Shown piece by piece: positions 2,398 to 7,327 of a DNA stretch of 64,000 nucleotides. The DNA comes from Caldovatus sediminis (lineage in GTDB: Bacteria > Pseudomonadota > Alphaproteobacteria > Acetobacterales > Acetobacteraceae). The notes under the pieces are model-generated. The model was given only the letters and a program-made list of their open reading frames with translations. It made no database searches and was not told where the DNA came from. The stretch lies in assembly GCF_014644455.1 (NCBI RefSeq), contig NZ_BMKS01000001.1, forward strand, positions 62,001-126,000. The letters are read 5' to 3'. How positions within the stretch are numbered: position 1 is the stretch's first letter; every line of letters begins with the position of its first letter. The position numbers and the translations under genes are program-made.

Positions 2398-4098
2398 GTG
2401 GGAGAGGCCGGCGCCGGCACGCAGCGGATCGCGCCGGCCGCCGCCGCGCCGGAGCGGACGCTCGCGCCCGGCGCGGCGGCGGCGCTCGCCTACGCCGCGG
2501 CGGCGCTGCTCGGCGGCGCGCTGGCGCTGGCGCTGCTCCCGCCGGACTTCCTGCTGCCGGAGGCGGGTCGGCCGTGGAAGCCGGTGGGCGACGCCGCCCA
2601 GCACATCGTCGCGCAGCGCTACTTCCTGCGCGACCCCGCCTGGCACTGGCCGCCGCTGCTGGCGCCGCATCTCGGCACCGCCGAGGGCGGGACGAACATC
2701 GCCTTCGCCGACGGCATCCCGCTGCTGGCGCTGGCGCTGAAGCCGCTCGCGGCCTGGCTGCCGCCGGGCTTCCACGGCATCGGCCTCTTCTACGGGCTCG
2801 CCATGCTGGCGCAGCCCCTCGCCGCGCTCTGGTGCCTGCGCGGCAGCGGCGAGCGGCGCCTCCTGCCCGGGCTCGGCGCGGCGCTGGCGGCGGCGAGCAT
2901 GCCGGCCTGGCTGAACCGCTACGGGCACGCGGCGCTGATGGGGCATTTCCTGCTGCTGCTCGGCCTCGGCCTCTACCTGCGTCTCGTCGGGCGGCAGGGC
3001 GCGCGGCTCTGGGGCGCGGCGGCGGCGCTCGCGGTCGCGGCGCTGCTCGTCCATCCCTACCTCGCGGCGATGGTGCTGGCGCTGCTCGGCGCGGTGCCCT
3101 TGACGCGGCTGCTGCGGCCCGGCGCGCCCGGCGTCGGCGCGGCGCTGGCGGGCTGCGGCGCGGCGGGCGCGACGGTGCTGCTGGCGATGGCGGCGTTCGG
3201 CTATCTCGGCGCGACCGGCGAGGGCGGCTACGGGCAGTTCGCGATGAACCTGCTCTCCCCGGTCTGGCCGCACCGCTCCGGCCTGCTCCCCGGCCTGGTC
3301 GCGGCGGAGGTGGACGCCACCGGACACGGCGGGTGGGAGGGCTACAACTGGCTGGGCGCCGGGCTGCTCGCCGGGGTGGCGGCGGCGCTGCTGCTGCGCC
3401 CGCGCGCGCTCGCCGTGACGCTGCGCCGGCATGCCGGGCTGGCGCTGGCCCTGCTGGCGCTGACCCTGCTCGCGCTGTCGCATCGCGTCGGGGCGGGGAG
3501 CGCGGTGGTGCTCGATCTCGGCGCGGTGCCGGCGGTGCTGGGGCAGTTCCGCGCCTCGGGCCGGTTCTTCTGGCCGGTCGCCTATGCGCTGCTGATCGGG
3601 GTGGTGGCGGTGCTGGCGCGGCATCCCCGGCGCGGGCTCGGCGCCGCCCTCGCGCTGGCGGTCGGCCTCCTGCAATTCGCCGACGCGGCGCCGCTGCGCG
3701 CGGCGCTGCGCGACTGGGCGGCGGCGCGGCCGGGCTGGACGCTCGACGCCCCCGCCCTGCGCGCGCTGTTCGCGCGGCACGCGCGGCTGACGCTGCTGCC
3801 CTCCTGGTCCTGCATCGCCCGCGGCGCCGAGCGCGACTACGCCGAGGCGCTGGAGGCCCTGGTGCTGGCCTCGGAGACCGCGCTGCCGGTCAGCACCATG
3901 TACGTCGCGCGCTGGCGCGGCGCGCCGCCCGCCTGCCGCGACGCGGCGCTGGCGGCGGCGCCGCTCGGGCCGGGCGAGCTGCGCCTGATCCTCCCCGGCG
4001 CGGTGGCGCAGGCCCTGCCGCTGGTGCCGCGCGCGGCGGAGCGGTGCGTCGCGCTGGGCGAGGCCGTGGCCTGCGCCGCCGCCGCGGCGGGACGGTAG
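2398..4098 (+). CDS. Large polytopic membrane protein, DUF6311-like
   Basis: A 566-residue inner-membrane protein with roughly ten hydrophobic segments. The region after the first helix (GDAAQHIVAQRYF, then a WHWPPL element and FADGIPLLALALK) resembles the membrane domain annotated DUF6311 and has the layout of lipid-linked-sugar-dependent (GT-C-like) glycosyltransferases: an acidic loop after helix 1 and a soluble C-terminal part. It starts at GTG with AGGAAGGGG upstream. The next gene is convergent, 22 nt away. Its place beside polysaccharide genes suggests envelope glycan modification, but the function is not known. Confidence 0.6.
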   Translation: MGEAGAGTQRIAPAAAAPERTLAPGAAAALAYAAAALLGGALALALLPPDFLLPEAGRPWKPVGDAAQHIVAQRYFLRDPAWHWPPLLAPHLGTAEGGTNIAFADGIPLLALALKPLAAWLPPGFHGIGLFYGLAMLAQPLAALWCLRGSGERRLLPGLGAALAAASMPAWLNRYGHAALMGHFLLLLGLGLYLRLVGRQGARLWGAAAALAVAALLVHPYLAAMVLALLGAVPLTRLLRPGAPGVGAALAGCGAAGATVLLAMAAFGYLGATGEGGYGQFAMNLLSPVWPHRSGLLPGLVAAEVDATGHGGWEGYNWLGAGLLAGVAAALLLRPRALAVTLRRHAGLALALLALTLLALSHRVGAGSAVVLDLGAVPAVLGQFRASGRFFWPVAYALLIGVVAVLARHPRRGLGAALALAVGLLQFADAAPLRAALRDWAAARPGWTLDAPALRALFARHARLTLLPSWSCIARGAERDYAEALEALVLASETALPVSTMYVARWRGAPPACRDAALAAAPLGPGELRLILPGAVAQALPLVPRAAERCVALGEAVACAAAAAGR

Positions 4099-4120: not shown

Positions 4121-5368
4121 TCAGCCGGGGCGCAGCGGCGGCGCAGCCGGGGGCGCGGGCCGCAGCGGCATGAGGCAGAGCAGCGCCGCCACCCCCAGCG
4201 CGCCGCACAGCGCGAAGGTCCAGGCGGCCGGCAGCGCCTCCACCGCCGGCGCGGCGAGGGTCGGCGCGACCGCCTGGGCGATCAGCACCGGCATGGCCAG
4301 CTGCCCGAGCAGCGTCGCGTAGCCGCGCGGCCCGAACAGCGCCAGCGGCACGGCGCCGCGGCTGATCGTCAGCAGGCCGTTGCTGACGCCGTGGAAGACG
4401 GCGAAGGCGACGGCCGCGGCGCCGATCGCCAGCGGCCCGGGAACCAGCAGCACCGCGACGCCGAGCGGCAGCGCCAGCGCGCCGAGCCGCGCGACGGTCA
4501 GCGGATGCGCGCGCGGGCCGAAGGCGAACTCCAGCACCCGCCCGGCCACCTGGCTCGGCCCGACCAGCGAGGCGACCGCGACCGCGGCGGCGAGACCGAG
4601 GCCGATCCCCTCGAGCAGAGCGATGAGGTGCACCGCCATCACCGCGCCGACCACGGCGCGCAGCGTGAAGAAGGCCGCGAGCATCAGGACGGCGCGGCGC
4701 ATCCAGGCGGCGCCGGCGGGCTCGGGCGGCGCCGGCGGCCGATCGGCGGGCGCCGCGGCGTCCGGCGGTGGCAGCGGCGGCGCGGCCGGCACGAGCAGGA
4801 GGTAGAGCGGCAGCACCAGGAGGAGCTGCGCCGCCGCATAGGCGAGACAGGTGCCGCGCCAGCCGAGCAGCGGCAGCAGCGCGGTCGAGACCGGCCAGCC
4901 GACCGTGCTGGCGAAGCCCGCGATCAGCGTCACCTGGGTGATCGGCCGCCGCGCCTCGCGCCCGTAGAGGCGCCCGAGCGTGGCGAAGGCCGGATCGTAG
5001 AGCCCCATCGCCATGCCGAGGCCGAGCACCGCCCAGCCGGCGAACCAGCCGGCGATCCCCGGCAGCAGGCCGAGCAGGGCCAGCCCCGCGGCGAGCACGA
5101 AGGAGGAGGCGACGAGCACGCCGCGCCCGCCCCGCGCCTCGATGGCGCGGCCGACGCGCGGGGCGCAGAAGCCCGCGACCAGCAGCGCCGCCGAGAAGGC
5201 GCCGACCACCACCGCGCGCGGCTGGCCGAGCTCCTCGGCCACCGGCGCGGCGAGCACGGCGGGCAGGTAGTAGGTGCAGGCCCAGGCGACGGTCTGGGCG
5301 AGGCCGAGCGCGAGCGCGACGCGCCCGCTCCCGCCGCGCGCGCGCGCTGCCGCGTCCGGCGCGCTCAA
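4121..5368 (-). CDS. MFS transporter of the padR-monooxygenase operon
   Basis: A 415-residue major facilitator superfamily protein with about 12 transmembrane segments in two halves, split by a Pro/Ala-rich cytoplasmic loop near residues 195-220. It begins at TTG in a TTGA overlap with the stop of the upstream flavoprotein gene, and no Shine-Dalgarno sequence is visible, so translation probably depends on coupling. It is the last gene of a padR-flavoprotein-MFS operon and probably exports the product or substrate of the monooxygenase. The very low content of charged residues in the helices fits an MFS drug or metabolite exporter. MFS exporters such as ArsJ and ArsK occur in arsenic loci, which makes a metalloid compound possible but unproven. 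Confidence 0.8.
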   Translation of the reverse strand: MSAPDAAARARGGSGRVALALGLAQTVAWACTYYLPAVLAAPVAEELGQPRAVVVGAFSAALLVAGFCAPRVGRAIEARGGRGVLVASSFVLAAGLALLGLLPGIAGWFAGWAVLGLGMAMGLYDPAFATLGRLYGREARRPITQVTLIAGFASTVGWPVSTALLPLLGWRGTCLAYAAAQLLLVLPLYLLLVPAAPPLPPPDAAAPADRPPAPPEPAGAAWMRRAVLMLAAFFTLRAVVGAVMAVHLIALLEGIGLGLAAAVAVASLVGPSQVAGRVLEFAFGPRAHPLTVARLGALALPLGVAVLLVPGPLAIGAAAVAFAVFHGVSNGLLTISRGAVPLALFGPRGYATLLGQLAMPVLIAQAVAPTLAAPAVEALPAAWTFALCGALGVAALLCLMPLRPAPPAAPPLRPG

Positions 5369-6819
5369 CCGCAGCAGCCGCCGGCGCGCGCCGGCGCCGG
5401 CTCCGCCCGCCGCGCGGGGCCGCAGCAGCCGGAGGGGAGGGACGCGGCGACGCGCGCCGGCTCCTCCCGCGCCGGGGCGCGGGATGCGGCCGCGGCGGGC
5501 GCCGGACCGCAGCAGGCGGAAGCGGCGACGGAGTCGGGCAGGCGCGTGGCCGAGCAGACCCCGGTCTCGGGCAGCTCGAGCATCACCGCCGCGGCCGCCG
5601 CCGCGTCGCCGGCGAGGTGCGCGGCGATGGAGCGCACCTGCTCGTGGCCGGTGGCGAGCAGGAAGGTCGGCGCGCGGCCGTAGCTCTTCATGCCGGCGGC
5701 GAAGAAGCCGGGCTCCTCCGGATGCGCGAGCGCCGCCGCGCCGTGCGGGCGCACCGTGCCGCAGGCGTGGAGGTTCGGATCGATCAGCGGCGCCAGCGCC
5801 GGCGTCGTCTGCAGCGACGGGTCGAGGGTGAGGCGCAGCTCGCCGAGGAAGGCGAGGTCGGGACGGAAGCCGGTGGCGACGATCATGCGCTCGGCGCGCA
5901 CGGTGCGCGCCGCGCCGCCCTCGGCCGCGCCGGTGACGCGCAGGGCGCCGTCGTCCTCGCGCGCGATGCGCTCGACCAGGAAGGGGGCGAGCGCCGCGAC
6001 GGCGCCCGATTCGACCAGCATGCGCGCATGCTCGCCGAGTTCGCCGCGCGCCGCCAGGGCGTCCGCCGCGCCGCCGCCGAAGTTCACCGCGGCGAGCGGG
6101 CGGCGGAAGGCCCAGAGGACGCGGGTGCCGGGCGCCGTCTCGGCCAGGCGCACCAGGTCGAGCACCGCGTTCATCGCCGAATGCCCGCCGCCGAGCACGA
6201 GCGTGGTGCGCCCCGCGTAGTGGGCGCGCGCGGCGCCGAGCACATCCGGAATGCCGTAGGCGAGCAGGCCGTCGCGCGCCGCCGCGGCCTCGCCCGGCGC
6301 GGGCAGGCCGTGGGCGCCGGCCGGGCTCGGCGTGAACCAGGTGCCGGAGCAGTCGATCACCGCGGCGGCGAGGATCTCCTCCGCCGCGCCGTCGGCGCCG
6401 GCGACCTGCAGCAGGAAGGGCGCGGCGGCGCGCCGGCCGTCGCGCATCCGGTCGTGGTGGCGGCGCGCGACGCCGAGGACGCGGGCGTTCAGCCGCAGCC
6501 GCGCGGCGATGGCGGGATGCGCGGCGAGCGGGGCGAGGTAGCGCGCGTGCAGCTCGGCCCCGGTCGGGTGCTCGCCCTCCGGCGGGGGGCGCCAGCCGGC
6601 GGGTTCGAGCAGGGCGCGGGCCGCGGCGTCGGTGTTGAAGCGCCAGGGCGAGAACATGCGCACATGCCCCCAGGCGCGGACGGCGTGGCCGGCCTCCGGC
6701 CCCGCCTCCAGCACCAGCGGCTCCAGGCCGCGGGCGAGCAGGTGCGCGGCGGCGGCGAGGCCCACGGGGCCGGCGCCGATGACGGCGACGGGGAGGCCGC
6801 GGGCGGCGAGGTCAGTCAT
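5365..6819 (-). CDS. Flavin-dependent monooxygenase with C-terminal CCG repeats
   Basis: A 484-residue FAD/NAD(P)-dependent oxidoreductase of the flavin-monooxygenase class. Seen: an N-terminal dinucleotide-binding motif GAGPVG at residues 15-20, a second Rossmann motif VLGGGHSAMN near residue 208 for NAD(P)H, and ATGFRPD near residue 320, typical of FMO/thioredoxin-reductase-like enzymes. After the catalytic core comes LPETGVC (Cys about 422), then a low-complexity tail with three Cys pairs, each followed by Gly (about 436-437, 465-466, 482-483). Paired cysteines of this kind commonly bind soft metal or metalloid ions. The start overlaps the padR stop by 8 nt and the end overlaps the MFS gene by 4 nt. 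ArsO-like arsenic-linked flavoproteins are the nearest named idea; the substrate is not known. Confidence 0.78.
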   Translation of the reverse strand: MTDLAARGLPVAVIGAGPVGLAAAAHLLARGLEPLVLEAGPEAGHAVRAWGHVRMFSPWRFNTDAAARALLEPAGWRPPPEGEHPTGAELHARYLAPLAAHPAIAARLRLNARVLGVARRHHDRMRDGRRAAAPFLLQVAGADGAAEEILAAAVIDCSGTWFTPSPAGAHGLPAPGEAAAARDGLLAYGIPDVLGAARAHYAGRTTLVLGGGHSAMNAVLDLVRLAETAPGTRVLWAFRRPLAAVNFGGGAADALAARGELGEHARMLVESGAVAALAPFLVERIAREDDGALRVTGAAEGGAARTVRAERMIVATGFRPDLAFLGELRLTLDPSLQTTPALAPLIDPNLHACGTVRPHGAAALAHPEEPGFFAAGMKSYGRAPTFLLATGHEQVRSIAAHLAGDAAAAAAVMLELPETGVCSATRLPDSVAASACCGPAPAAAASRAPAREEPARVAASLPSGCCGPARRAEPAPARAGGCCG

Positions 6820-7240
6820 GGCATCGGTCCTTTCGGCTGGAAGCGCGGCAGCGGCCCGCGGCCGTGCCGAAGCCGCGGCAGCAGTCGCGGAGGGCGTCGG
6901 TCGCCTCCAGCCAGGCGGCGAGGGCGACGCGGAAGGCCTCGCGGCCCGCCGCGGTCAGCGCGTAGACGCGGCGGCGGCGGCCCTGGACCACCTGGTCCTC
7001 GCCGGTGACGAAGCCGCCCTCCTCGAATTCGCGCAGCACCGGGTAGAGCGCGCCCTCGGAGGGCGAGCAGCAGCCGCCCGTCATGCGCTCGACGGCGCGG
7101 GCGAGGTCGTAGCCGTGCATCGGCCCGTCGTGCAGGGCGCGGAGGAGGAAGAACTTGGAGAGCCCCATCTTGATCGTCCCGGCCCAGTAGGCGCGGGAGC
7201 CGTAGTCCACGCGGGGCGGCTGGGGCGCGGGCCTGCTCAT
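6812..7240 (-). CDS. Cysteine-rich PadR-family transcriptional regulator
   Basis: A 142-residue PadR-type winged-helix regulator, first gene of the padR-monooxygenase-MFS operon and probably its repressor. The DNA-binding domain is clear: MGLSKFFLLRALHDGPMHGYDL, then the wing region EGALYPVLREFEEGG and the basic strand GRRRRVYALT. Unusual for PadR are a Cys pair at residues 57-58 at the start of the recognition helix, a pair at about 120-121 and single Cys at about 131 and 140. This suggests thiol-based sensing of a metalloid, metal or oxidant. A good -35 and a weak -10 lie directly upstream and would place the transcript start at or next to the start codon. An internal ATG at codon 25 is the alternative start. 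Confidence 0.85.
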   Translation of the reverse strand: MSRPAPQPPRVDYGSRAYWAGTIKMGLSKFFLLRALHDGPMHGYDLARAVERMTGGCCSPSEGALYPVLREFEEGGFVTGEDQVVQGRRRRVYALTAAGREAFRVALAAWLEATDALRDCCRGFGTAAGRCRASSRKDRCHD

Positions 7241-7246
7241 GGCGCG

Positions 7247-7275
7247 ACCCTATGCCTCGTCCCCTAATATGTCAA
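7247..7275 (-). promoter_or_regulatory. Candidate promoter of the padR operon
   Basis: On the minus strand a perfect -35 TTGACA (7275-7270) is followed after 17 nt by TAGGGT (7252-7247), which matches the -10 consensus at only 3 of 6 positions. The predicted transcript start is at or 1-2 nt from the padR ATG. An 8-bp palindrome GATGCATC at 7281-7288 sits just upstream and could be part of an operator. Confidence 0.5.
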
Positions 7276-7327
7276 TGGGCGATGCATCGGACCGGAGAGC
7301 AGCCCGCCCGGCGGAGGGCGGGCGCGG

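Follow-up and report, generated by a model that had tools for sequence, protein, structure and literature searches.

The exporter ArsK is said, going by the title of a paper only, to export As(III), Sb(III), methylarsenite and roxarsone in its trivalent form. Among flavin enzymes of arsenic-resistance (ars) loci, ArsV has been described as a flavin monooxygenase that acts on organoarsenicals and on antimonite (PMC11719878, PMC10080717; these and all other papers given here by PMC number are cited from partial text). In the repressor R773 ArsR the metalloid site lies in the DNA-binding domain, as does the cysteine pair of the regulator described here, and SpArsR is a two-cysteine, methylarsenite-responsive repressor for which two cysteines suffice (PMC11868830); ars genes are also touched on in PMC9144182, PMC6514093, PMC7466150 and PMC9137774. 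Here we analyse a three-gene operon in a 64-kb stretch of DNA from Caldovatus sediminis (contig NZ_BMKS01000001.1, positions 62,001 to 126,000; the whole stretch is called the window below), which encodes a regulator of the PadR family, a flavoprotein with a cysteine-rich tail and a major facilitator superfamily (MFS) exporter. The operon is, in our judgement, likely to be a detoxification module which controls its own expression and acts on a trivalent, thiol-seeking metalloid, that is, on As(III)/Sb(III) and/or an organoarsenical such as methylarsenite. No description of a PadR-type metalloid sensor was found in the openly licensed PMC literature, among the matches listed and as far as the partial texts go.

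The genes form one minus-strand run in the order padR, flavoprotein gene, MFS gene (positions are those of the window):

6812 to 7240, minus strand: padR, encoding a PadR-family regulator of 142 amino acids, of the GCC[ST]P subfamily (from PF03551, an AlphaFold model and its nearest folds).
5365 to 6819, minus strand: gene of a two-domain NAD(P)/FAD flavoprotein of 484 amino acids with a cysteine-rich tail, presumed to have an ArsO/ArsV-like role (Pyr_redox_3, 47.5 bits).
4121 to 5368, minus strand: gene of a predicted ArsK-like MFS exporter of 415 amino acids, with a TTG start (NF033733, 237.9 bits).

The first two genes overlap by 8 nt (6812-6819) and the last two by 4 nt (5365-5368), just as stated in a preliminary description made from the sequence alone. 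The Pfam domains of the products are PadR, pyridine-nucleotide oxidoreductase and MFS_1. The source genome, of 4.8 Mb, belongs to the Acetobacteraceae, and its flavoprotein is 89% identical to the counterpart in Caldovatus aquaticus.

The flavoprotein family is linked to core ars genes. ArsR or another ars gene was found by phmmer within 1.5 kb of 48 of the 71 distinct flavoproteins, and an ars gene other than ArsR within that distance of 28 of the 71, whereas none of the 41 loci of other PadRs has either (the control loci are shorter, with a median of 3.2 kb, and the flavoprotein loci were therefore trimmed to 1.5-kb flanks; neighbours were called by single-reference protein search with thresholds that we set ourselves, so misses are likely). 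The preliminary description had suggested a search for the co-occurrence of this PadR with the CCG-tailed enzyme and for the distance of the two to ars genes. Duplicate proteins are left out of all counts given here except that of the monooxygenase fingerprint below. Among 40 genome-contig loci of the flavoprotein (our L002-L041; L and G numbers are our labels for loci and genomes), a core ars gene other than ArsR is found in 19, ArsR in 18, an ArsK-like MFS gene in 16 and an ArsO-like gene in 8, and in L025 the neighbour of the flavoprotein gene is a true ArsO (551 bits, over the cut-off). In L052 (919-3096, minus strand; the same locus as L156) the flavoprotein is fused in frame to an ArsN1-like acetyltransferase (137 bits, cut-off 210) of the arsinothricin/phosphinothricin type.

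The same picture emerges from nine plasmid records, which were picked by hand from 129 with a flavoprotein match (138 in a further search): in eight of them arsenic genes are annotated nearby. In Shinella, Bosea, Rhizobium rhizogenes and Neotabrizicola an ArsR-flavoprotein-MFS/ArsK unit adjoins at least one of ACR3, ArsC, ArsH and ArsJ, and in Ensifer adhaerens an ArsR-flavoprotein-ArsK cassette adjoins an annotated arsenate reductase (azurin) large subunit and an ArsN1-like acetyltransferase. The flavoprotein-MFS pair of Streptomyces sp. FR-008 adjoins ArsR, ACR3, ArsO, ArsC and TrxB genes, while the flavoprotein gene sits between two arsC genes in Dietzia and after ArsN1, before arsD-arsA, in Pseudomonas nitroreducens. 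The ninth record, a Roseomonas mucosa plasmid, has PadR-flavoprotein-MFS with no further ars gene in view.

In front of the flavoprotein gene PadR and ArsR alternate. A flavoprotein match above 300 bits is found in 26 of 150 Acetobacteraceae genomes, at 29 places (matches below 300 bits were dropped; any match at E 0.001 occurs in 60 of the 150); 17 of these places lie directly behind a PadR of the window's GCC type, 11 behind an ArsR, and one has neither found. In the same genomes 17 of the 18 subfamily PadRs precede the flavoprotein gene, the exception being in G067. On a tree of 69 flavoproteins (24 with PadR, 32 with ArsR and 13 others), which was made by a quick method and has several long branches, so that its details are provisional, the PadR label needs five changes, at least four of them forced by the starred branches, against about 20 for shuffled labels. 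By this tree, PadR appears to have been exchanged repeatedly with ArsR in front of the same flavoprotein gene, which agrees with the suggestion of the preliminary description that a PadR stands here in place of ArsR. The ArsRs directly upstream of the flavoprotein contain CC, CxC or CxxC in 28 of 28 cases (the count includes N-terminal stretches of uncertain start codon), and in many of them the motif takes the form of a CC...C at the C-terminus, as has been described for AfArsR (PMC11868830).

The window regulator itself is clearly a PadR protein (PF03551, 72.8 bits against a cut-off of 27); the ArsR/SmtB domain HTH_5 (PF01022) is absent from its Pfam matches, and the nine HTH_5 places in its own genome do not include it. 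Its AlphaFold model (mean pLDDT 87.7) shows a winged helix followed by a long C-terminal helix, with LmrR and Rv3488 as the nearest solved folds. Cysteines are found at positions 57, 58, 120, 121, 131 and 140, as the preliminary description had it (the last two being its two additional cysteines). The pair which matters is encoded at:

7067 to 7072, minus strand: codons of PadR Cys57-Cys58 (from conservation in the subfamily, with the loop position taken from the model).

Residues 55-61 form in the model a loop directly before helix 62-74, which is presumably the recognition helix. Cys57-Cys58 lies within a GCC[ST]P motif in 30 of 30 distinct subfamily PadRs, ranging down to 48% identity, and in none of the 44 nearest other PadRs. 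The boundary of the subfamily is sharp, since in the 150 Acetobacteraceae genomes members score at least 166 bits and the next best protein 53.9. A search of 385 alphaproteobacterial genomes gave eight further members, which all keep the pair, although they are not independent (three, in G966, G1058 and G1133, are of one genus, and G966 is close to L021); a C-terminal cysteine is present in all eight, the flavoprotein gene comes next in seven and a window-like MFS gene follows in one. No subfamily PadR was found in 321 genomes of the class of G278, in a search run without a positive control. The PadR of L021, on a contig from a metagenome-assembled genome titled Alcanivorax, is nearly identical to that of alphaproteobacterial G966 (L191), pointing either to recent transfer or to a misbinned contig.

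Cys120-Cys121, by comparison, is found only in the two Caldovatus PadRs, most others having a cysteine closer to the C-terminus, and we rejected it as the key site. The preliminary description had staked its case on homologous operons keeping the cysteine pairs, and this holds for the first pair and fails for the second. At least one cysteine is present in the last 25 residues in 26 of the 30 subfamily PadRs, compared with 2 of the 44 nearest others. Since the pair is invariant and the extra cysteine common without being found in every member, we infer that the site would suit a ligand bound by two thiols, methylarsenite for example, or else As(III)/Sb(III) if one more thiol takes part.

Vicinal cysteines are, as a matter of general knowledge, suited to several inducers, so that this PadR could instead respond to redox stress or thiol-reactive stress in general, or to a different soft metal (Hg, Cd, Te, chromate), with the linkage to ars genes being secondary. 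A chromate exporter gene does lie near the Roseomonas mucosa copy, and a padR gene adjoining chrA has been reported in an integron (PMC12191737). However, the recurrent partners and neighbours are ArsK-like, ACR3, ArsJ, ArsO or ArsN1 genes, and it is with ArsR that PadR alternates before the same flavoprotein gene, so we regard such a sensor as distinctly unlikely.

Self-regulation is suggested by the region upstream of padR, which contains three features:

7250 to 7275, minus strand: promoter-like element TTGACA...CATAG upstream of padR (motif TTGAY..TATA[AG]).
7267 to 7287, minus strand: best putative operator dyad, ATGCATCG-N5-TGACATAT, matching the consensus at 13 of 16 positions and overlapping the -35-like element.
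7252 to 7272, minus strand: overlapping partial dyad site, 12 of 16.

A TTGAY...TATA[AG]-like element is found upstream of all 30 subfamily padR genes, and in 21 of them it ends 9 nt before the start codon used. A promoter matrix scores 17.9-36.5 at these genes and stays at or below 11.0 throughout 35 ArsR loci, with the reservation that it was built from those same 30 sites; upstream of padR in the eight later members it gives at least 22 in six, with L186 and L188 below. With up to two mismatches allowed, the promoter pattern has one match in the window's own genome, with one mismatch, and its reversed control none, and because of this single occurrence the PadR looks dedicated to its own operon. 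Across the 30 upstream regions arm complementarity reaches 61% of pairs at one centre and does not exceed 33% at any other. The putative operator, ATRCMTCG-N5-CGAKGYAT, is found with at least 13 of 16 matches upstream of 37 of 38 padR genes and in 25 of 27 padR-flavoprotein gaps of 60-200 bp, against shuffle means of at most 10.4, a comparison that overstates the significance since the consensus was picked by eye from the same sequence set (the count of gaps leaves out those under 60 bp, in the window, L002, L013, L018 and L022). The window dyad at 7267-7287 has the top consensus score in the entire 64 kb on both strands.

An operator-like dyad also occurs a second time, within the padR-flavoprotein gap, in L063-L066, L074, L178 and L180-L182, and four of the later loci score 20-26 with the promoter matrix at a second site between the two genes. 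The second dyad suggests a second controlled promoter in the loci that have it; it is absent in the window, where the padR and flavoprotein genes overlap.

The flavoprotein carries cysteines at 157, 353, 422 (in LPETGVC), 436-437, 465-466 and 482-483, the last six being the three CCG repeats that, with the preceding LPETGVC, had already been recognised in the preliminary description. Motif and repeats lie in the following region:

5368 to 5574, minus strand: flavoprotein residues 416-484, LPETGVC with the CC-repeat tail (from pLDDT and conservation).

Up to around residue 420 the model is mostly confident, apart from a dip at 379-385, and residues 429-484 are predicted to be disordered (pLDDT below 50). 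Among 40 aligned relatives Cys353 and Cys422 never vary, and Cys436 is kept in at least 90%. LPxTGVC is present in all 69 distinct complete tails (those broken by contig ends were dropped) and is followed by at least one CC in 64 of them, with a cysteine content of 10.3% after the motif and 0.7% in the core. An origin of the tail as an accident of GC-rich sequence was rejected because CC tails recur in relatives, including those from other phyla. A 32-residue tail peptide gave no match to other plasmid proteins, in a search that did not return its own source record either.

Control of phenolic or multidrug genes is common among PadR regulators (general knowledge; PMC6016940), and another explanation would be an ordinary operon of PadR, oxidoreductase and MFS genes that serves the efflux of aromatics or drugs, with the cysteines there by coincidence; the plasmid PadRs of L083 and L084 have no ars neighbours, though they are outside the subfamily. 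The comparative data contradict this view, as Cys57-Cys58 is kept in 30 of 30 and then 8 of 8 PadRs, the CC tail recurs as just described and the relatives have ars genes around them, which makes it highly improbable.

What the flavoprotein does chemically is a separate matter. None of the NCBIfam families reaches its cut-off for this protein: ArsO (NF040505) scores 37.5 bits against 425, and no ArsV model is among the matches. An identity as ArsO was therefore rejected, all the more since a true ArsO can be the next gene, as in L025. The motif FxGxxxHxxx[FY] is the fingerprint of classical flavin-containing monooxygenases (FMO) and class B monooxygenases. It is found in 0 of 106 family sequences, duplicates included, so by this motif the protein is not a classical FMO. 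Among solved structures the closest in fold is the bacillithiol disulfide reductase YpdA (7a76, TMq 0.58). Hence the same module may run on other chemistry, the flavoprotein being an NADPH-dependent YpdA-like reductase which keeps a thiol, or an adduct of metalloid and thiol, in the reduced state so that the MFS protein can export it. In a distant homologue, L041 (6296-7015, Wocania), the gene after the flavoprotein is weakly BshB2-like (50.6 bits, cut-off 195), which hints at some connection with low-molecular-weight thiols. On the other side, N-hydroxylating monooxygenases follow YpdA among the fold matches, 8 of the 40 loci have ArsO-like genes (over the ArsO cut-off in L025), and ArsV, known to us here by description and not by sequence, is described as a flavin monooxygenase which oxidises methylarsenite or organoarsenicals (PMC11719878, PMC10080717). 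No CxxC is present in the window flavoprotein. We consider the reductase alternative rather unlikely, and ArsV the natural candidate for the identity of the flavoprotein; an oxidase activity would be suggested by the context and by analogy to ArsO and ArsV. Of the sense-oxidise-export module proposed in the preliminary description, the ars association, the PadR in ArsR's place, the cysteine pair, the cysteine tail and the ArsK-like exporter stand, whereas "oxidise" finds no support in the ArsO score or the FMO fingerprint.

The last gene of the operon encodes a predicted MFS exporter, as the preliminary description had proposed, and more precisely an ArsK-like one: over nearly its full length the protein matches NF033733 (ArsK) with 237.9 bits (E 1.6e-70), and it is 34% identical over 386 columns to the NCBI-named ArsK of Rhizobium rhizogenes. 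Assignment as ArsK proper was rejected, the score being below the equivalog cut-off of 400. Some subfamily PadRs are found next to an exporter gene and no flavoprotein, such as in L145, where an ArsK-like MFS gene (238 bits to ArsK) adjoins, and in L188, where the adjoining MFS scores 145 bits to that of the window. On the Cupriavidus basilensis plasmid pRK1-4 (L079, 5956-7566) the gene of a GCC-type PadR is followed by those of a SaoE/SO_0444-like permease and of a small protein that contains three repeats with CC; this may be another exporter under PadR control, for a metalloid or soft metal. In L146 (3747-4881, minus strand) such a PadR stands directly before a glutathione-transferase-like gene, whose product ends in CC; a PatB-like C-S lyase lies further on and an ArsO-like gene (326 bits, phmmer) 2.9 kb away.

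Within the window the operon stands alone. A phmmer scan with 18 reference proteins (the three window proteins, five ArsRs, ACR3, two ArsC types, ArsH, ArsO, ArsK, ArsJ, the GAPDH of ArsJ, ArsN1 and TrxB) matched only the three operon genes, so that ACR3, ArsC and ArsH were not found in the 64 kb, in agreement with the preliminary description; ArsB, which it had also listed as absent, was not among the queries. Elsewhere in the genome an ACR3 gene adjoins an HTH_5 (ArsR-type) match on another contig, and an ArsC-family gene is on a third. Since these genes sit on other contigs, the three-gene operon is probably an addition to the basic arsenite efflux of its genome. The operon's end is adjoined by a gene on the opposite strand for a DUF6311 protein (2398-4098, plus strand), unrelated so far as seen.

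We propose the following mechanism for a metalloid detoxification module. PadR dimers would repress the operon by binding to the ATRCMTCG-N5-CGAKGYAT operator, which overlaps the promoter. The metalloid would bind to Cys57-Cys58, just before the recognition helix, with a third thiol, where needed, perhaps provided by the cysteine-bearing C-terminus, and PadR would leave the DNA. The flavoprotein would capture the trivalent metalloid on its conserved cysteines and the CC tail and convert it with NAD(P)H/FAD, most likely by oxidation to the less toxic pentavalent form, and the ArsK-like MFS protein would export the substrate or the product. Of this scheme the comparisons show the order of the genes, the conservation, the recurrent operator-like dyad, the link of the family to ars genes and the repeated exchange with ArsR, with strong evidence for the sensor site, the operator and the ars linkage; the ligand, the repression and its relief, the direction of the redox reaction and the export are inferred. 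Whether one can go further is, to our mind, evenly balanced: the GCC-type PadRs may represent an undescribed family of trivalent-metalloid repressors, perhaps selective for methylarsenite, with its own operator, a site made of two thiols at the foot of the recognition helix and repeated swaps with ArsR, and the disordered CC tail a metalloid-capturing arm that loads the enzyme or hands the metalloid to the exporter.

Several observations weigh against this reading. The window copy has no other ars gene around it, and 21 of the 40 genome-contig loci, some of which are clipped by contig ends, lack a core ars gene by the search used; on the tree, no PadR or ArsR stands directly upstream of 13 of the 69 flavoproteins as judged by our criterion. 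In the regulator, the last 25 residues are free of cysteine in 4 of the 30 subfamily members, and a vicinal pair could also serve redox or other thiophilic-metal sensing. The promoter matrix missed two of the eight later members, and in the later loci it gives up to 26.1 at a second site and 22.5 on the opposite strand. The window dyad is among the weaker ones, with 4 of its 8 arm pairs palindromic and 2 of 9 at the family position. The absent FMO fingerprint, the disulfide reductase as closest fold and the MFS score under NCBI's ArsK cut-off also belong here. If the proposal is nevertheless true, there would be a second, unrelated family of arsenic sensors, which arose via a cysteine pair placed in the PadR fold, and a clear case of convergent replacement of a regulator before the same enzyme gene. 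It would also yield a new component for metalloid biosensors, one whose operator is defined, and an experimental handle on a widespread, poorly named, cysteine-tailed flavoprotein of ars loci.

How does the operon then compare with known systems? Rv3488 and LmrR have the PadR winged-helix fold in common with the window regulator. Rv3488 differs in sequence (37.8 bits) and has no cysteine pair aligned at 57-58; it reportedly binds metal, and a literature search for Rv3488 with cadmium found no paper. ArsO is likewise an NAD(P)H flavoprotein of ars clusters and differs from the window protein in the score and fingerprint given above, a true ArsO being a separate gene in L025. ArsV/ArsW, compared by description only and from partial text, are alike in their reported role, in which a flavin enzyme oxidises methylarsenite and the product is then exported. 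With the ArsR repressors of the R773, AfArsR, CgArsR and SpArsR types (PMC11868830) the PadR would share the logic of cysteine-based derepression by a metalloid, while belonging to another protein family and having its cysteine pair in another position. Similar arsR-flavoprotein-MFS/arsK cassettes are found on plasmids of Rhizobium rhizogenes, Ensifer adhaerens, Bosea and Shinella, with the same LPxTGVC and CC-tailed flavoprotein (51% identical between Ensifer adhaerens and the window) followed by an MFS gene. Their exporters are closer to ArsK, being named so by NCBI in Rhizobium and Ensifer and scoring 390.6 against the cut-off of 400 in Bosea, compared with 237.9 in the window, and their regulator is of the ArsR/SmtB family, whereas that of the window is a PadR. 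What is new here is the class of the regulator, its site and its operator, within a known kind of system.

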